64,000 nucleotides of DNA from Methylocystis heyeri. GTDB lineage: Bacteria > Pseudomonadota > Alphaproteobacteria > Rhizobiales > Beijerinckiaceae. A program made the translations under genes and the position numbers. Location of the stretch: contig NZ_CP046052.1 in the NCBI RefSeq assembly GCF_004802635.2, positions 2,914,001 through 2,978,000 of the forward strand, read 5' to 3'. Positions within the stretch are counted from its first letter, which is position 1. Every line of letters begins with the position of its first letter. The notes beneath the pieces were generated by a model. That model ran no database searches. It was not told where the DNA came from and was given only the letters and a program-made list of their open reading frames with translations. Below, in pieces: positions 4,992 through 63,612 of the stretch.

Positions 4992-5318
4992 GCAACCGCT
5001 CCATTAGCTGCGCTGGAGCGCATCGCCGCAAAGCTTCACACGCTTTTGCGACAGGAATGCGCTCCAATTGATTGGGCCGGCCCGACTCGACTTCATTCGA
5101 GAATGCCCCCGTTCGACGATAGGCGCGCCAGCTTATCAAAAACTGCGCCAATCGCCTCCGCTTAGACCGCCGCCGTCCGGGTTTGCGGACTCGGACCCCT
5201 TATATTTTCCACGGTTTCCAGAGCATGTCCCCAAAAAGTGCGAAGCGGTTTTTGGAAAAAAACATGCTCCGTCAATGAGATTTGGAGCGCGTTCGACTGC
5301 GTTTGAACCGAACGCGCT
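4992..5318. other. Intergenic stretch with two palindromic repeats
   Basis: No gene is supported in this 327-bp gap between the coiled-coil protein and the large glycosyltransferase. It contains one copy each of the two dispersed repeat families listed separately (5014-5066 and 5221-5323). Both can fold, and they may act in transcript 3'-end formation for the upstream gene. Confidence 0.6.
5014..5066. repeat. Palindromic repeat, family 2, copy 1
   Basis: Perfect 10-bp arms TGGAGCGCAT (5014-5023) and ATGCGCTCCA (5057-5066) flank a second inner stem (GCAAAGC / GCTTTTGC). Related hairpins with the shared core CTTTTGCGGAATGCGC lie near 9110 and 62813. Confidence 0.6.
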
Positions 5319-5323
5319 CTAGA
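5221..5323. repeat. Dispersed intergenic repeat, family 1, copy 1
   Basis: About 103 bp, begins AGAGCATGTCCCCAAAAAGT and ends CGAACGCGCTCTAGA. It contains two stem units: AGCATGT..ACATGCT and GAGCGCGTTCG..CGAACGCGCTC. It is about 85-90% identical by eye to the copies at 55156-55255 and 63307-63405. Its right end overlaps the TAG stop of the large glycosyltransferase gene. Confidence 0.85.
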
Positions 5324-8300
5324 GTTCCAAAGCCTGGCGAAGGCGCTCGCTGAAACGCGCCGGCGAGAAATGCTCGTCGTAGACCTTCCGCGCGTTCGCC
5401 CCGATTTCCGGCCATTTATCCCGCATGTCGAGCGCTCTCTGCAGCGTCTCGGCCACATCCCTGGGGCCGTTGTGCGCCAGAACAAAGCCGGATTCGGAAT
5501 CGGTCACGTAAGAGGAAACGCCGCATGTGGAGCTTATTACGACGATCTTTCCGGCGCTGAGGGCGCTCATGGCGACCAGCGGCCCCGCATCGTCGCGCGA
5601 AGGCACCAGCACGATGTCGGCGGCGGCCATATGGTCGGCGACTTCCTCGGCGTTCAGTTCATTCCTGAAGACGATGCTTTTTTCCTCGGCGGCGATGTCC
5701 TCGATGGCCCTGCGGAAACCTTCGTCGTTCGTCCGACCGGCCAGCACCAGTCTACAATTGCTTCTGTATTCTTCCGGAAGCGCCAAAAAGCCCATGACGG
5801 CGATGTCCTGCCCTTTTCGCGGTTCGTAAGTGCCGGTCAGGGCGATGGTCAGTTTCTTGTCGCCGCGCTCCTTCCCCGCGCCGACCTGCAGGGCTTCCAC
5901 GCCGCACTCCAGTTCGATCGGTTCGATATCGCACCGCCTGCGGATGCTGGCCGCCGCGCGGGGGCCTGCTGCGAACACTTTGGTCGCAGCCGCCAGTCCT
6001 TCCCGAAATCCCCTTACATTGTCGCAGAAGTGGTTCACGAGATCGGTTTCATGGCAGAAGACATAGACCGGAACAAAGGGGGATAGCGCCGCCGCCAACG
6101 ACCAGGTGAGGATGGTGTTGCCGATCACGAGATCGAAGTTCTTCGCCATCGCGACGAATATGTCATGAGCGGGCAACACCAGCGGATCGATGATGACGTC
6201 TACGCCAATTTCCAGCAGCCGTTCCCGATAAACGCCGTCCTCCGGCGATGCGACAACGACGAAATGCCCCTCGCGGATGAGGTTTTTCGCAATTTCGAAC
6301 AGCACGCGCGGGGCGCCGCTGCCCGAAAGATCGTGCGAGACGAGCAATATGTCCTTCCCGCCCTCCGGCTTACGCGGACGCTTGGCCATTTGGTAGGAGA
6401 ACGGCTCCTGGCTGTCGATATAGACCAGGTCCCGCATGTTCGCCGGAAAATAGGGGTCTCGAACGCAATAGTCGCCCCATTGCCTCATGGCGTAGATATC
6501 GGCCTTGTCCTTTTTGAAAGGCTTTGGCTTCTTCTCCACGGCCCCGATGGAAACATGGCCGATATGCGTGAGTTCCGCATGCGGCGTATAGAGGCAGGCA
6601 TAGCCCGCCGCGCGAATGCGAAAGCATAGATCGACGTCGGAATGGGCTATGCCCGCGTTCAGGGGATCATATCCCCCGATTTCGTCGAACAGCCGCCGCG
6701 GCATGGCGAGGCAGGCTCCGCAAATCAGCGAGACCTCGCGAACGCACTGAGCCAGATTGAAATAGGCCGTGGTGTTCGACGGATAGGCGTGAAAAGCGGT
6801 GCCGAACAGCCGCCGCACGCCGGTGACCATGCCCGCATGCTGTATGGTCTCGTTCTCATAAAGGAGTTTGGGACCCACCGCGCCGACGCCGGGCAGCGTC
6901 AGAAATTCGAGGATGCATTCGATCCAGTCCCGGCTGATGACCCGGACGTCGTCATTGAAAAATACGACATATTCGCCTTTGCTGTCCCGGACGCCCTGAT
7001 TGCATTTGTCCGAAAAATTATAGGGCTTGTCGTAGGCGCTGAAGCGGACGTCCTGTTCGTCCGCAAAAGCCTTCAACTCGCCGACAATGCCGGAGTTGGT
7101 TACGACGATGGTCTCATATTTTCCATATGAGCTCGCCTCCCGTAGCGAAACGACCGTTGCTTTGATGTTGTCGACATTGTCGGACGGAATAATCACCGAA
7201 ACCAAAGGTCCGGTGGCGGCGTCGATCGTTCGTTTAAGTCGGTTCGCGGTGGGCAAGGCGATTGCTTCGCCGCCCCAGCCCCGCCGGATCGCGGCGTCCT
7301 GAAGCGCCGCAATATTGGTGTTTCGCGCCGTGGGCTTGTCCCCGACCGCGGCCGAACCCGAAATCATGCGCCAGCCATAGAGAATCCGCTCGATATGGCC
7401 GACCTTGGGGTTCCGTTCGGCGACCCGCAGGGCGAGATCGTAATCCTGCGAGAAATCGAATTCGCTGCGGAATTTCCCGACAGCGGCCACCGTTGACTTC
7501 CTGTACACGGAGAGATGCCCCGTATACATCGAGTTCAGCAGCAGAAAGGGGCTCCAGTCCGGCTTGAAGAAAAGGTCGTCGGCGATGTTGTAGGCGTCGA
7601 TCTTGCACTCGTCCGAGTAGATGAGATCATAGTCGCCATTTTTCTGGATGAGCTCGACGAAACATTCGAGCGCATCGCGCGTGAACATATCATCGTGGTC
7701 CAGAAGAGCTACGTATTCCCCGGACGCATTGTCGAAGGCGATGTTCGTCGCTACGGAAATTCCGCCGTTCTGCGGCGGAAAGAAAACCTTGATGCGCTTG
7801 TCGAGGCCCGCATAATATTCGAGCAAGGTCTTGAGATTGGGGTCTTTCGAGCAATCGTCTACGAGCAGCAGCTCCCAGTTGGCGTAAGTCTGCCCCATGA
7901 CCGAGAGTATCGCGCGCTCGAGAAAAGCCAGCGGCGGCCGGTAGACGGGTATGAGCACGCTGATCTTCGGCCCGCCCGACACAATGCCGGCCAGCGACGG
8001 ATCGATGACGAAGCGCTGCGTCGCATCATGGCGGCCGCGATTGTAGTTGTTGAGGATCGGAACCGGATAGGCCGGCGGATTCTGCGGCGCGCGCTGCGGG
8101 GACAGCCCCAGCGCGGCGAGTCGCGCCGCCATCCCGGCAAGATCGAGCGAGGCCTTGGATTCGACGACGCCGGAAACCCATTCCTGCGGCAAGGATTCAT
8201 CCCGCCCCACGGCGTTGAGCTTGGCGAGGAGCAGCGGAATCTCGTTCGGCGGCGAATCCCGGAAGGGGCTATTGGCGCTTTTTGTGCGAAACGCCTTGAA

Positions 8301-9017
8301 CAGTTCGACGCTCGACAGCGTCGCATGGTTCCAGCCGGCTTCGGCGATCGGCTGAAGCCGAGGCGGCTTGATGCCGGGTTCGGCGGGTTTCGATGGCGGC
8401 TCCTCTTTGGGAGCCGGCGCGGCGTAGGCCGAGGTCTCTATTTGATCCAGGCCGAAATATCGCCTGAAAGCCGGCTCGAAGACCTCACGAAACTCATGCG
8501 GATCGTGAGTGGGCGTGGGACGTCGTCCCTCGCGTTCTCCCCGGATCAGAAAATGAGTGAGGGGCTCGTGCCCCGACTCGACGACGTCCTGATGCTCGCT
8601 CAGATACCAGTCGGCATTGAACAGATTGTTCAACCGAAAGCCCTGCCGCCAACCGACGGTCAGATAATGAGTCAAGGGATCGAGGCCGCCGAGGCTGGGC
8701 CCCTGGGACAGATAAAAGCCTATGTCGACCAGAGGATGCGGCCGGGTTCCTTCCTTCCACCCCCGGCGAACGAAGTGATCCAGCGGTTCGGCCCCGGCGT
8801 CCCTGATGTCCGGCCGCATCGCCAGATAAAACCGAACCGAAAACAACGGATGGGGCGCGCGCCCTTCCTTCCAGCCTTTGGAGATGTAATGCGGGAAAGA
8901 AATCTCGCTTTCCTGGAGATCGGAATTTTCCCTCCGATACCACTCGCGATTGAAAAGCGGATGGGGGGCGGCGTTAGCGCCCGCGAAGCCGGAAGCAGGG
9001 ATGATGTTGATGTTCAT
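5319..9017 (-). CDS. Multidomain glycosyltransferase (repeats + GT2 + GT2 + GT4)
   Basis: A 1,232-residue cytoplasmic glycosyltransferase. Residues about 15-185 hold four HPLF..WYL..HY..G..EGR repeats. A first GT-A domain starts near residue 350 (ISVLIPVYRPP, acceptor motif LLDHDDMF near 440). A second GT-A domain starts near 606 (LVSVIIPSDN, then FFNDDVR). A GT-B/GT4-like domain runs from about 890 (ILLVSHDLSGSGAPRVL) to the end, with GTYEPRKGQD near 1066 and PSRDDAGPLVAMSAL near 1146. Such fusions build heteropolymeric surface polysaccharides by successive transfers. The sugars cannot be predicted. ATG start; the TAG stop lies inside a dispersed repeat. Part of the 4-16 kb polysaccharide region. 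Confidence 0.9.
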   Translation of the reverse strand: MNINIIPASGFAGANAAPHPLFNREWYRRENSDLQESEISFPHYISKGWKEGRAPHPLFSVRFYLAMRPDIRDAGAEPLDHFVRRGWKEGTRPHPLVDIGFYLSQGPSLGGLDPLTHYLTVGWRQGFRLNNLFNADWYLSEHQDVVESGHEPLTHFLIRGEREGRRPTPTHDPHEFREVFEPAFRRYFGLDQIETSAYAAPAPKEEPPSKPAEPGIKPPRLQPIAEAGWNHATLSSVELFKAFRTKSANSPFRDSPPNEIPLLLAKLNAVGRDESLPQEWVSGVVESKASLDLAGMAARLAALGLSPQRAPQNPPAYPVPILNNYNRGRHDATQRFVIDPSLAGIVSGGPKISVLIPVYRPPLAFLERAILSVMGQTYANWELLLVDDCSKDPNLKTLLEYYAGLDKRIKVFFPPQNGGISVATNIAFDNASGEYVALLDHDDMFTRDALECFVELIQKNGDYDLIYSDECKIDAYNIADDLFFKPDWSPFLLLNSMYTGHLSVYRKSTVAAVGKFRSEFDFSQDYDLALRVAERNPKVGHIERILYGWRMISGSAAVGDKPTARNTNIAALQDAAIRRGWGGEAIALPTANRLKRTIDAATGPLVSVIIPSDNVDNIKATVVSLREASSYGKYETIVVTNSGIVGELKAFADEQDVRFSAYDKPYNFSDKCNQGVRDSKGEYVVFFNDDVRVISRDWIECILEFLTLPGVGAVGPKLLYENETIQHAGMVTGVRRLFGTAFHAYPSNTTAYFNLAQCVREVSLICGACLAMPRRLFDEIGGYDPLNAGIAHSDVDLCFRIRAAGYACLYTPHAELTHIGHVSIGAVEKKPKPFKKDKADIYAMRQWGDYCVRDPYFPANMRDLVYIDSQEPFSYQMAKRPRKPEGGKDILLVSHDLSGSGAPRVLFEIAKNLIREGHFVVVASPEDGVYRERLLEIGVDVIIDPLVLPAHDIFVAMAKNFDLVIGNTILTWSLAAALSPFVPVYVFCHETDLVNHFCDNVRGFREGLAAATKVFAAGPRAAASIRRRCDIEPIELECGVEALQVGAGKERGDKKLTIALTGTYEPRKGQDIAVMGFLALPEEYRSNCRLVLAGRTNDEGFRRAIEDIAAEEKSIVFRNELNAEEVADHMAAADIVLVPSRDDAGPLVAMSALSAGKIVVISSTCGVSSYVTDSESGFVLAHNGPRDVAETLQRALDMRDKWPEIGANARKVYDEHFSPARFSERLRQALEL

Positions 9018-55155: not shown

Positions 55156-55255
55156 GGAGCAGTTCCCAAAAAGTGCGAAGCGGTCTTTGGAAAAGAACAT
55201 GCTCCGTCAATGAGATTTGGAGCGCATCCGACTGCGTTTGAGCCGAACGCGCTAG
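55156..55255. repeat. Dispersed intergenic repeat, family 1, copy 2
   Basis: About 100 bp; GGAGCAGTTCCCAAAAAGTG to GAGCCGAACGCGCTAG, collinear with the copies at 5221 and 63307. Its right end overlaps the TAG stop of the PepSY gene (55252-55254). Confidence 0.85.
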
Positions 55256-56817
55256 GTCAGCGCCTCGCGCGCGGTGCGCCGCAAGCGGCGCCAGCCCAGC
55301 ACGACGGCGCTCGCAGCCAGCGCGAGGCCGAAGGAAACCCAGACGATCATCCAGGCGTTCCACAGCCAGATCTGGCGGAACCAGCCGAAATCCCAGTGAT
55401 GAACGGCGGAATAAAGCCAGCGATAGGCCCGCCGGCTGTCGTCGAATTTGGCGAGCAGGCGCCCGTCGACCGGATCGATGTAGAGGGAGGTGTTCCCGGC
55501 GTCGGCGAGATCGACCCGCAGCACGGGAAGCGGCTTGTCCGCGGCGGCCTGTCGATGACCCGGATAATAATAGCTGTCGTAAACCTGCAAGAGCTCATGG
55601 CCGGCGAGCCTGGTTTCGCCGGCGAGACGCTGGGCCGCGGCGAACAACGCGGCCTCGGAAAAGGTCCCCGCCGTTCCGGAAATGGGAAGCGCCCGCCGCG
55701 CGCCGTCGCGCGAGACCGCAAACAGCGTCGCCTCTTCGCCGACACGGCTCCATTGCAATTCGACGACATCGGGGTCGAGCGTAAATTGCGCGTCGGGTTT
55801 CCAGTCCGCGACGATCGTGGACTCCGGTCCGCCGCGATAGCGCGACAACTCGTCGGGGCTGGCCGCGGCAGACGAAAAGATCTGCCCCGGATTGGTGGAA
55901 AGAAACCCGCTCGCCGCCCACAGCAGGGCGAAAGTCCCGCCGATCAGGCCGGCCCAGAAATGATATTTGAACCAGAACTCCCGGAACGGCTGAGTGCGGC
56001 CGCCGGAATAGGTCGGCCTGCCGAAATAGCCCGGTCGCCACCGGATAAAGCCGAGGATCATCCCGGTCAAAGCGCCGAATGCAGCGAAGAACCCGGCATA
56101 GGTGAGCACGTCGCGGCGATATTCTCCGACGCCGAGCGCGTCGAGCCAGCGAAAGAGATGCAGCCAGGCGCCGGCATAGGCGACAGCGCGGCCGGCGCGC
56201 GTCGTAAGCTGAACCACTTCGCCCGTTCGTTCGGACACCACCGCCTGCGAGCCGGCGCCGTCTTCTATTGCGATGCGGTGAAACGGCTTCAAAGCATCGG
56301 CGTTGCGCAAACCCACCACTGCGTCGACCGTGTCGCTGTAGGAGAGCTGTAAAGACGCCGGCGCCGCAAGCCAGCTGCGCACGATCCTTTCGGCCTGCGC
56401 CGCCGAGACGTCGAGGACGGCGCCGTCGAGCGCGGAAATCGCTCGGCGCCGGCCGCCTTCGGCCTCGACGATCCAGGCCGGCGCGCCATCGATGCGGGTC
56501 AGGCGCGCATCCACCACAGCGCCGTCGCCCCGGGATCTACCCGCTCCATGTTCGTGCATGGGCGCAGCGGAGACTTTCGGCGCAGCGGCGCGCCCCTCCG
56601 CCGAAACATGGGCGGCGGCGCTGAGCTTCAGCGCCTGCCCGAGCGACAGCCATCCCTCCTGCGGCGCGAGGCTGGAGGCGTGCAAAAGCTGTTCGCTGCG
56701 CGTCGACGGCGGACCGCCGACAAGGGCGATCACCAGGCCCGAGGAAAACCATCCCAGCATGAAAATCGCCAGCGCTACGCCGAACCAGCGATGGGTGAAG
56801 GTAAGCAGGCCGAACAT
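55252..56817 (-). CDS. PepSY-domain membrane protein
   Basis: 521 residues, four helices in the PepSY_TM arrangement: FGLLTFTHRWFGVALAIFML, then long periplasmic part, LTYAGFFAAFGALTGMILGF, KYHFWAGLIGGTFALLWAAS, and a last helix WMIVWVSFGLALAASAVVLG. His in THRW and YHFW are the conserved pair. Relatives include iron- or flavin-reductase-like and siderophore-associated membrane proteins; role here unknown. ATG 56817; stop provided by the adjacent repeat. Confidence 0.85.
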   Translation of the reverse strand: MFGLLTFTHRWFGVALAIFMLGWFSSGLVIALVGGPPSTRSEQLLHASSLAPQEGWLSLGQALKLSAAAHVSAEGRAAAPKVSAAPMHEHGAGRSRGDGAVVDARLTRIDGAPAWIVEAEGGRRRAISALDGAVLDVSAAQAERIVRSWLAAPASLQLSYSDTVDAVVGLRNADALKPFHRIAIEDGAGSQAVVSERTGEVVQLTTRAGRAVAYAGAWLHLFRWLDALGVGEYRRDVLTYAGFFAAFGALTGMILGFIRWRPGYFGRPTYSGGRTQPFREFWFKYHFWAGLIGGTFALLWAASGFLSTNPGQIFSSAAASPDELSRYRGGPESTIVADWKPDAQFTLDPDVVELQWSRVGEEATLFAVSRDGARRALPISGTAGTFSEAALFAAAQRLAGETRLAGHELLQVYDSYYYPGHRQAAADKPLPVLRVDLADAGNTSLYIDPVDGRLLAKFDDSRRAYRWLYSAVHHWDFGWFRQIWLWNAWMIVWVSFGLALAASAVVLGWRRLRRTAREALT

Positions 56818-62376: not shown

Positions 62377-62898
62377 TTTTCCTCCCCGGTCTGAATCAGA
62401 CGCGGTTCAACTGCGACGATAGAGTTTCGCGCCGGCCTCTGCGTTTAGCTATGCGACCACGCGCCGCAGCATCGCGCCCGACCGGCCAGCGGCCTCGAGA
62501 GGCGCTCCGGTCATCGAGCCGCCGCTTGTCGATCGACGCCAGCCCGCCATATTCGCCGTGGAAAATTGGCGCGGCGACAGACATCGAACAGCCCTTTTTC
62601 CAAAGCAGAGTCCCGCGCGGCGCCCGACCGGCCTGCGCGCAGACAAACGCGAAGCGCAGCCGGATCGGTCGGCCGCCAAACCCGTCGCAGAAGCCAGTCG
62701 AGATGCCGCTCTGGTGCGAGTTCTGCTTGGACGGAACCGTTCCAGCGGTCGGAAATGACGTCATATAAAGTGGATGTGCCGCATTCTTGGAGCGAGAGCC
62801 TGTCAACTTTTGCGGAATGCGCTAAGACGGGCGGACGAGGGCCGCTCCCGAGCATACCGAGCGCGAGCATACCGGCGAGCAGAAGTGGAGAAACCTTG
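62377..62898. other. Intergenic region with a family 2 repeat
   Basis: 522 bp. All frames open on both strands for 60-170 codons but overlap and lack signals. A family 2 hairpin lies at 62781-62825. Confidence 0.45.
62781..62825. repeat. Palindromic repeat, family 2, copy 3 (diverged)
   Basis: Arms GCATTC (62781-62786) and GAATGC; the right half CTTTTGCGGAATGCGCTAAG is the best preserved form of the shared core. About 75 bp upstream of the VanZ-like gene. Confidence 0.5.
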
Positions 62899-63309
62899 GT
62901 GAACGTAACTCCGATTTTAGACGCCTTCGCCACTCCGCCGGTTACGCGCCTGATTCGCGCGCTGGCGGGACTGTGCGTCGGCGTAATTACGGTTCTGTCT
63001 TTGCTCCCGGGAGACGAACGGCCGCACACCGGCATGCCGGGGCAGTTAGAACATTTCTGCGCCTACGCGGGCACGGGTTTCCTTTTTGGACTGGGCTTCG
63101 CCAACAGCAGGCGAATTCGTATCATGATCTGGGGCGGGATGACGGCGGCCAGCGTGGCTTTCGAAGGGCTGCAATTTTTCGTTCCGGGTCGCTCGCCCAG
63201 CCTTGTCGACGCGCTCGCGAGCACGCTCGGCCTCAGCTTTGGTCTCGTCGCGGCGGCCCTGATGTTTCCAATCTTGAAAAGATGGCTCGAATTTGCGCTC
63301 AGGCGGTAG
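62899..63309 (+). CDS. VanZ-like membrane protein
   Basis: 136 residues with four hydrophobic helices. VITVLSLLPGDERPHTGMPG then LEHFCAYAGTGFLFGLGFAN and FEGLQFFVPGRSPSLVDALA follow the VanZ-like pattern (P-x-x..H..aY and Q..vpgR..s..D). GTG 62899 has GGAG eight bases upstream. The TAG stop is part of a dispersed repeat. Confidence 0.8.
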   Translation: MNVTPILDAFATPPVTRLIRALAGLCVGVITVLSLLPGDERPHTGMPGQLEHFCAYAGTGFLFGLGFANSRRIRIMIWGGMTAASVAFEGLQFFVPGRSPSLVDALASTLGLSFGLVAAALMFPILKRWLEFALRR

Positions 63310-63405
63310 AGCATGTTCCCAAAAAGCGCGAAGCGCTTTTTGGGAAAAGAACATGCTCCGTCAATAAGTTCTGGAGCGTGTTCGACTGCGTTTGAACCGA
63401 ACGCG
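63307..63405. repeat. Dispersed intergenic repeat, family 1, copy 3
   Basis: About 99 bp: TAGAGCATGTTCCCAAAAAG to TTTGAACCGAACGCGC. The left stem (AGCATGTTC..GAACATGCT) is perfect here. Its first three bases are the stop codon of the VanZ-like gene. Confidence 0.85.
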
Positions 63406-63612
63406 CGCCAGGGCGCAGGTTTTGACCCGATCAAAACCGGCGCTCCGGGTTATTGATTTACCGCATTGCGCGAGCCGTCGGCTGTTTCCGCCCGGTCGAG
63501 AAATGCGCCAGCTTCATCGCGAGCCGGTAGGGGAAAAGCGCGGCAAGCGCTCTCCTGCGACGGGCTCACGACATCGAGGGTGGAACGAAGCCCAAAGGCT
63601 AATTGGGCGCCC

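Follow-up and report, generated by a model that had tools for sequence, protein, structure and literature searches.

The window analysed here, a 64,000-nucleotide stretch of Methylocystis heyeri (contig NZ_CP046052.1), holds three copies of a short repeat, each of which overlaps the TAG stop codon of a neighbouring gene. A sequence-only reading of this DNA had pointed out the three overlaps, and their coordinates are right for all three copies:

5221-5319, forward strand: copy 1 of the two-hairpin element, 98% identity to the query
5319-5321, reverse strand: stop TAG (CTA on the forward strand) of a glycosyltransferase gene, 5319-9017, 1,232 aa, Pfam PF00535/PF00534
55157-55252, forward strand: copy 2, both ends degenerate, with GCGCTA replacing GCGCTCTA at the right end
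55252-55254, reverse strand: stop TAG (CTA on the forward strand) of a PepSY_TM gene, 55252-56817, PF03929
63307-63309, forward strand: stop TAG of a VanZ-like gene, ORF 62566-63309 with an uncertain start, PF04892 slightly below cut-off
63309-63408, forward strand: copy 3 of the two-hairpin element

The element proper is 99 bp long, GAGCATGTTCCC...CCGAACGCGCTC, excluding the flanking TAs. In the copies of this genome the left flank reads YTA followed by GAGC and the right flank GCTC followed by TAR, with much decay. Read inward, both ends start with G or, more rarely, with A. This agrees with the earlier remark that the repeat ends give TAG in both orientations, with one refinement: because the TA is a target duplication, the element owns only the G of each TAG in the window. 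The glycosyltransferase TAG thus consists of the target TA plus the complement of the last base of copy 1. Copy 1 retains its right TA (5320-5321) and its left one (5219-5220) has decayed to CA; copy 3 retains its left TA (63307-63308) and its right one (63409-63410) has likewise become CA; the boundary of copy 2 is short by two bases. The hairpin proposed in the sequence-only reading is real, and there are two of them in copies 1 and 3. Element hairpins are strong (-34 to -52 kcal/mol), and no T-run terminator follows them. At gathering scores, a tRNA is the sole Rfam match in the window; the left arm of copy 2 matches the Brucella sRNA CI408 weakly (E 1.4e-4, far below the gathering score), and a left arm like that of copy 2 is also present at an Ochrobactrum locus (L272). 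The left TA is present in most of 61 near-full copies in this genome, and the right flank is often CA rather than TA, with C at +1 in 21 of the 61, an asymmetry between the ends. Because many TAs have decayed, the histories of individual copies are uncertain. At C1:1995107-1995213, 3600484-3600749, 4480962-4481123 and 3408278-3408525, either the left arm by itself or the whole copy is repeated in tandem, as if the left arm could multiply on its own.

The 4.73 Mb genome gave about 110 first-look candidate copies, of which 40 were scored; the stretches around 69 sites were analysed, the 61 near-full copies were measured, and genes were called by a home-made codon model trained on the stretches around copies. 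None of the 61 copies lies within a called gene, only 3 lie between divergent genes, and their neighbours present 87 gene 3' ends against 35 5' ends. A stop falls exactly at an element end in 24 of the 61 copies. Counted by gene, 24 of the 87 3' ends stop exactly at the boundary (23 copies, one of them at both ends), and adding window copy 2, at its boundary minus two bases, brings the totals to 25 gene ends in 24 copies. Another two genes read on into an element without stopping at its boundary, and the next-nearest stop is 9 nt off. On the far side of stop copies, the third base is a purine in 20 of 21 scorable cases. One old copy (C1:3709102-3709208) has ends that form the stops of two convergent genes, for a ferrochelatase and a histidine kinase, and its far side reads TAT, unlike an old stop for the left (ferrochelatase) gene.

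The same pattern recurs outside this genome. The left-arm pattern was found at at least 118 loci, mostly in Bradyrhizobium and also in Ochrobactrum and Xanthobacteraceae. Among the matches listed there are 110 usable left ends; a coding frame reads into 45 of them, and 42 of these 45 stop at the junction of TA and the element's G (P about 4e-17). Again among the matches listed, Bradyrhizobium-type copies are 98-124 bp long, all 12 frames that run into their right ends stop at the boundary, the far-side triplet is TAR in 19 of 19 left-stop copies, and the 38 stop loci form 37 clusters and so are independent. Two Bradyrhizobium-type copies (L343 and L290) have no TA in front, and there a TGA is re-formed from a flanking T and the GA of the element. 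In a sister species (genome G007), whose 34 copies have diverged and carry a different second arm and GATTC in the loop, 8 genes have their stop precisely at an element boundary.

Whether insertion created these stops or re-formed stops that already existed can be asked of relatives, since same-genus relatives mostly do without the element. Orthologues of PntB, a sugar kinase, an acyl-CoA synthetase, the ferrochelatase, a CobW-like protein and gene 2782982 end at the same C-terminal residue; a globin-like protein does so in most same-genus relatives, and several other stop-copy genes differ from their orthologues by 1-3 residues (PntB, kinase, synthetase, ferrochelatase, CobW-like and globin-like are putative names from sequence reading, not family searches). 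Some genes depart from this. The PepSY gene at copy 2 is shorter than its orthologues, which are 12-25 residues longer, one porin is shorter by 11 residues, and gene 4098034 is shorter by 7-21; orthologues of the VanZ-like gene at copy 3 differ in length by -7 to +25 residues, and for the glycosyltransferase at copy 1 the 38 other genomes of the genus yield no orthologue at E<=1e-20. For the three window copies themselves, we infer restoration of the stop from the repeat family as a whole. We also searched the joined flanks of seven loci against 40 genomes reached through the repeat loci. The site of locus L246 is empty in six of them (L350 and L352-L356), with the junction GAACTAGC in all and GAACTAGCAG in L350; the filled Bradyrhizobium alleles read GAACTA, then 100 bp, then TAGCAG, against the empty GAACTAGCAG. 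The site of L337 is empty in three genomes (L348, L349 and L351), which read GCCTAGC, and at the L260 site some relatives stop at the same place. Filled and empty alleles together are direct evidence for duplication of the TA inside a stop codon.

These observations bear on the proposal in the sequence-only reading that insertion near a 3' end provides the stop codon, which would then be a new one lying earlier in the gene. The shorter PepSY gene, gene 4098034 and porin would fit such a history, as would the copy ending at 3709208, where the far-side TAT was no stop for the left gene. But most repeat-free orthologues share the end residue, the empty sites already hold the same stop codon, and frames entering the element are in phase rather than out of phase by 24 to 2 in this genome and 42 to 3 at the left ends elsewhere, when random entry near 3' ends would leave two thirds of them out of phase. 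Orthologues and empty sites thus refute a new stop as the general case, a shared end residue in repeat-free orthologues being an outcome that the sequence-only reading had itself named as refuting, and we hold it highly improbable overall, though it could be the history of single copies. The probability that the three window coincidences are mere chance is practically nil. A YTAR is often a stop codon, so given the choice of YTAR their frequency is unremarkable in this genome, but the stop-codon tallies refute chance: in three data sets independent of one another, stops spike at an exact distance and frames favour one phase.

The reading we favour, at a probability of roughly 0.87, is that a non-autonomous repeat inserts at the TA of YTAR, restores TAA and TAG stops and survives near gene 3' ends. 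The repeat of about 100 bases is mobile, common in rhizobium-type bacteria and often located in the TA of TAA or TAG stops. With its two hairpin arms, the element would enter the TA of YTAR and duplicate it; where that TA belongs to a TAA or TAG stop, TA plus G would give an in-frame TAG, and the old stop would remain as a TAR beyond the far side. Because the element ends read inward as G, the TAG is re-formed at the same residue and the protein is unchanged, so the repeat can sit against genes without altering their products. Insertions within genes or upstream of them would be removed by selection, leaving the survivors concentrated at the 3' ends of genes or a short way behind them, in places where a YTAR is frequently the stop codon. 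The structure of the ends, the target, the phase, the agreement of C-termini and the empty sites are directly observed, and selection presumably shapes the distribution of copies. The earlier idea that the stop-codon coincidence accounts for tolerated insertions holds up in this form, enriched as the coincidence is genome-wide and in other genera.

How much of the enrichment is specific to stops is a separate matter. Random TAs in the same spacers would give 15.3 stops against the 24 observed (P about 1e-4), so stops are indeed in excess of random positions, yet random YTARs in the same spacers would give 22.4 (P 0.29), and relative to YTARs lying up to 100 nt downstream of a gene, stops in this genome are 1.8-fold in excess (P 0.04), the intergenic control sites including some uncalled genes. 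At the Bradyrhizobium-type loci among the matches listed, elements coincide with stops more often than noncoding CTAG sites would lead one to expect (odds ratio 6, P 4e-11). Within 60 nt of a gene end, however, stop and non-stop elements number 38:18 against 38:22 for CTAG sites, which match. Because this split follows CTAG availability within 60 nt, much of the bias is closeness to 3' ends: 56 of these elements lie within 60 nt of gene ends and 3 at 61-199 nt, against 60 and 49 CTAG sites. The coincidence with stops therefore exceeds chance, but the choice of YTAR as target largely accounts for it. The stop excess reflects that choice together with the survival of copies lying no more than about 60 nt from a gene's 3' end, and any further preference for stops as such has weak support at best. 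That the ends are shaped to re-form a stop in TAR for harmless insertion, with machinery or selection actively favouring the first 60 nt or so, seems to us unlikely. Somewhat better placed, and compatible with restoration of existing stops, is the possibility that copies are kept at 3' ends for a useful role of the hairpin in mRNA stability or termination. The crowding within 60 nt and the strength of the hairpins speak for such a role, which we would still call possible rather than probable, since the hairpins have no T-run terminator and much of the bias would be expected simply from avoidance of 5' regions.

A likely mover of the repeat would be an IS711-like transposase of the IS5 family (IS427-type), judging by a shared target and a partial likeness of ends. 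This genome holds three IS5-family types (PF13586) of 838, 833 and 874 bp, in 27 copies found (including L193-L209). All 27 duplicate TA in YTAR, and 9 adjoin the GCTCTA/TAGAGC sequence typical of the repeat's ends, but only 1 lies at a gene stop. The likeness between IS and element ends is partial only (GGGCCTGTT against GAGCATGTT), and when ISs bearing the ends of the repeat itself were sought, repeat copies and near matches came up, with no clear parent among the matches listed. The same insertion rule could be served by another TA-targeting transposase of the IS630/Tc1-mariner type, since TA duplication is a trait of IS630-type elements too, and a transposase of that type is believed to mobilise the RUP repeats of pneumococcus (PMC2229807). 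We find this quite unlikely here: the IS630-type transposase domain (DDE_3, PF13358) has no match in this genome, yet the 27 IS5-family copies obey the YTAR rule.

Repeats of the Bru-RS, CIR and RIME types resemble the element described here, and it shares TA duplication at YTAR with IS5-family (IS427-type) MITEs. RIME1 of Rhizobium is an intergenic repeat of about 108 bp with two palindromes. Within partial open-access coverage we found no paper stating a rule that links YTAR insertion to stop codons. Such a rule offers a simple, sequence-level reason why short repeats crowd genes, namely that the target is itself a stop and the ends restore it, and it lends itself to computational checks wherever a genome has many repeats of the Bru-RS, CIR or RIME type. 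It also carries a caution for annotation: where a stop codon falls inside a repeat, in most cases it belongs to the gene itself and does not mark a truncation.

Bru-RS1 and Bru-RS2 of Brucella are described as palindromic intergenic repeats of about 103-105 bp, and the 842 bp IS711, which duplicates TA at YTAR, often sits in Bru-RS (PMC2266754, PMC3163539, PMC2267715). The ISs of 833-874 bp found here obey that rule as well, 9 of the 27 copies lying beside sequence of this element type; in contrast, the parts of those papers available to us do not mention stop-codon insertion by Bru-RS itself, a comparison made by description. RUP of pneumococcus, Correia/NEMIS of Neisseria and ERIC are also small non-autonomous repeats with TA ends (PMC2229807), but they differ from the present element in sequence and host and form a single hairpin from paired ends instead of two arms, and the mover of RUP is thought to be IS630-type. 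The CcrM-associated intergenic repeats (CIR) of Caulobacter and Brucella are about 110 bp long, with two arms and a linker, TA ends and no intragenic copies (PMC2229807). Our element shares the two-arm architecture (99 bp plus TA), the TA termini and the intergenic location. GANTC occurs in the arm loop of 31 of 34 sister-species copies, as in CIR, whereas it is largely lost from the copies of the present genome (4 of 61). The sister species (L211-L229) has two or more diverged two-arm families whose loop holds GATTC (GANTC).
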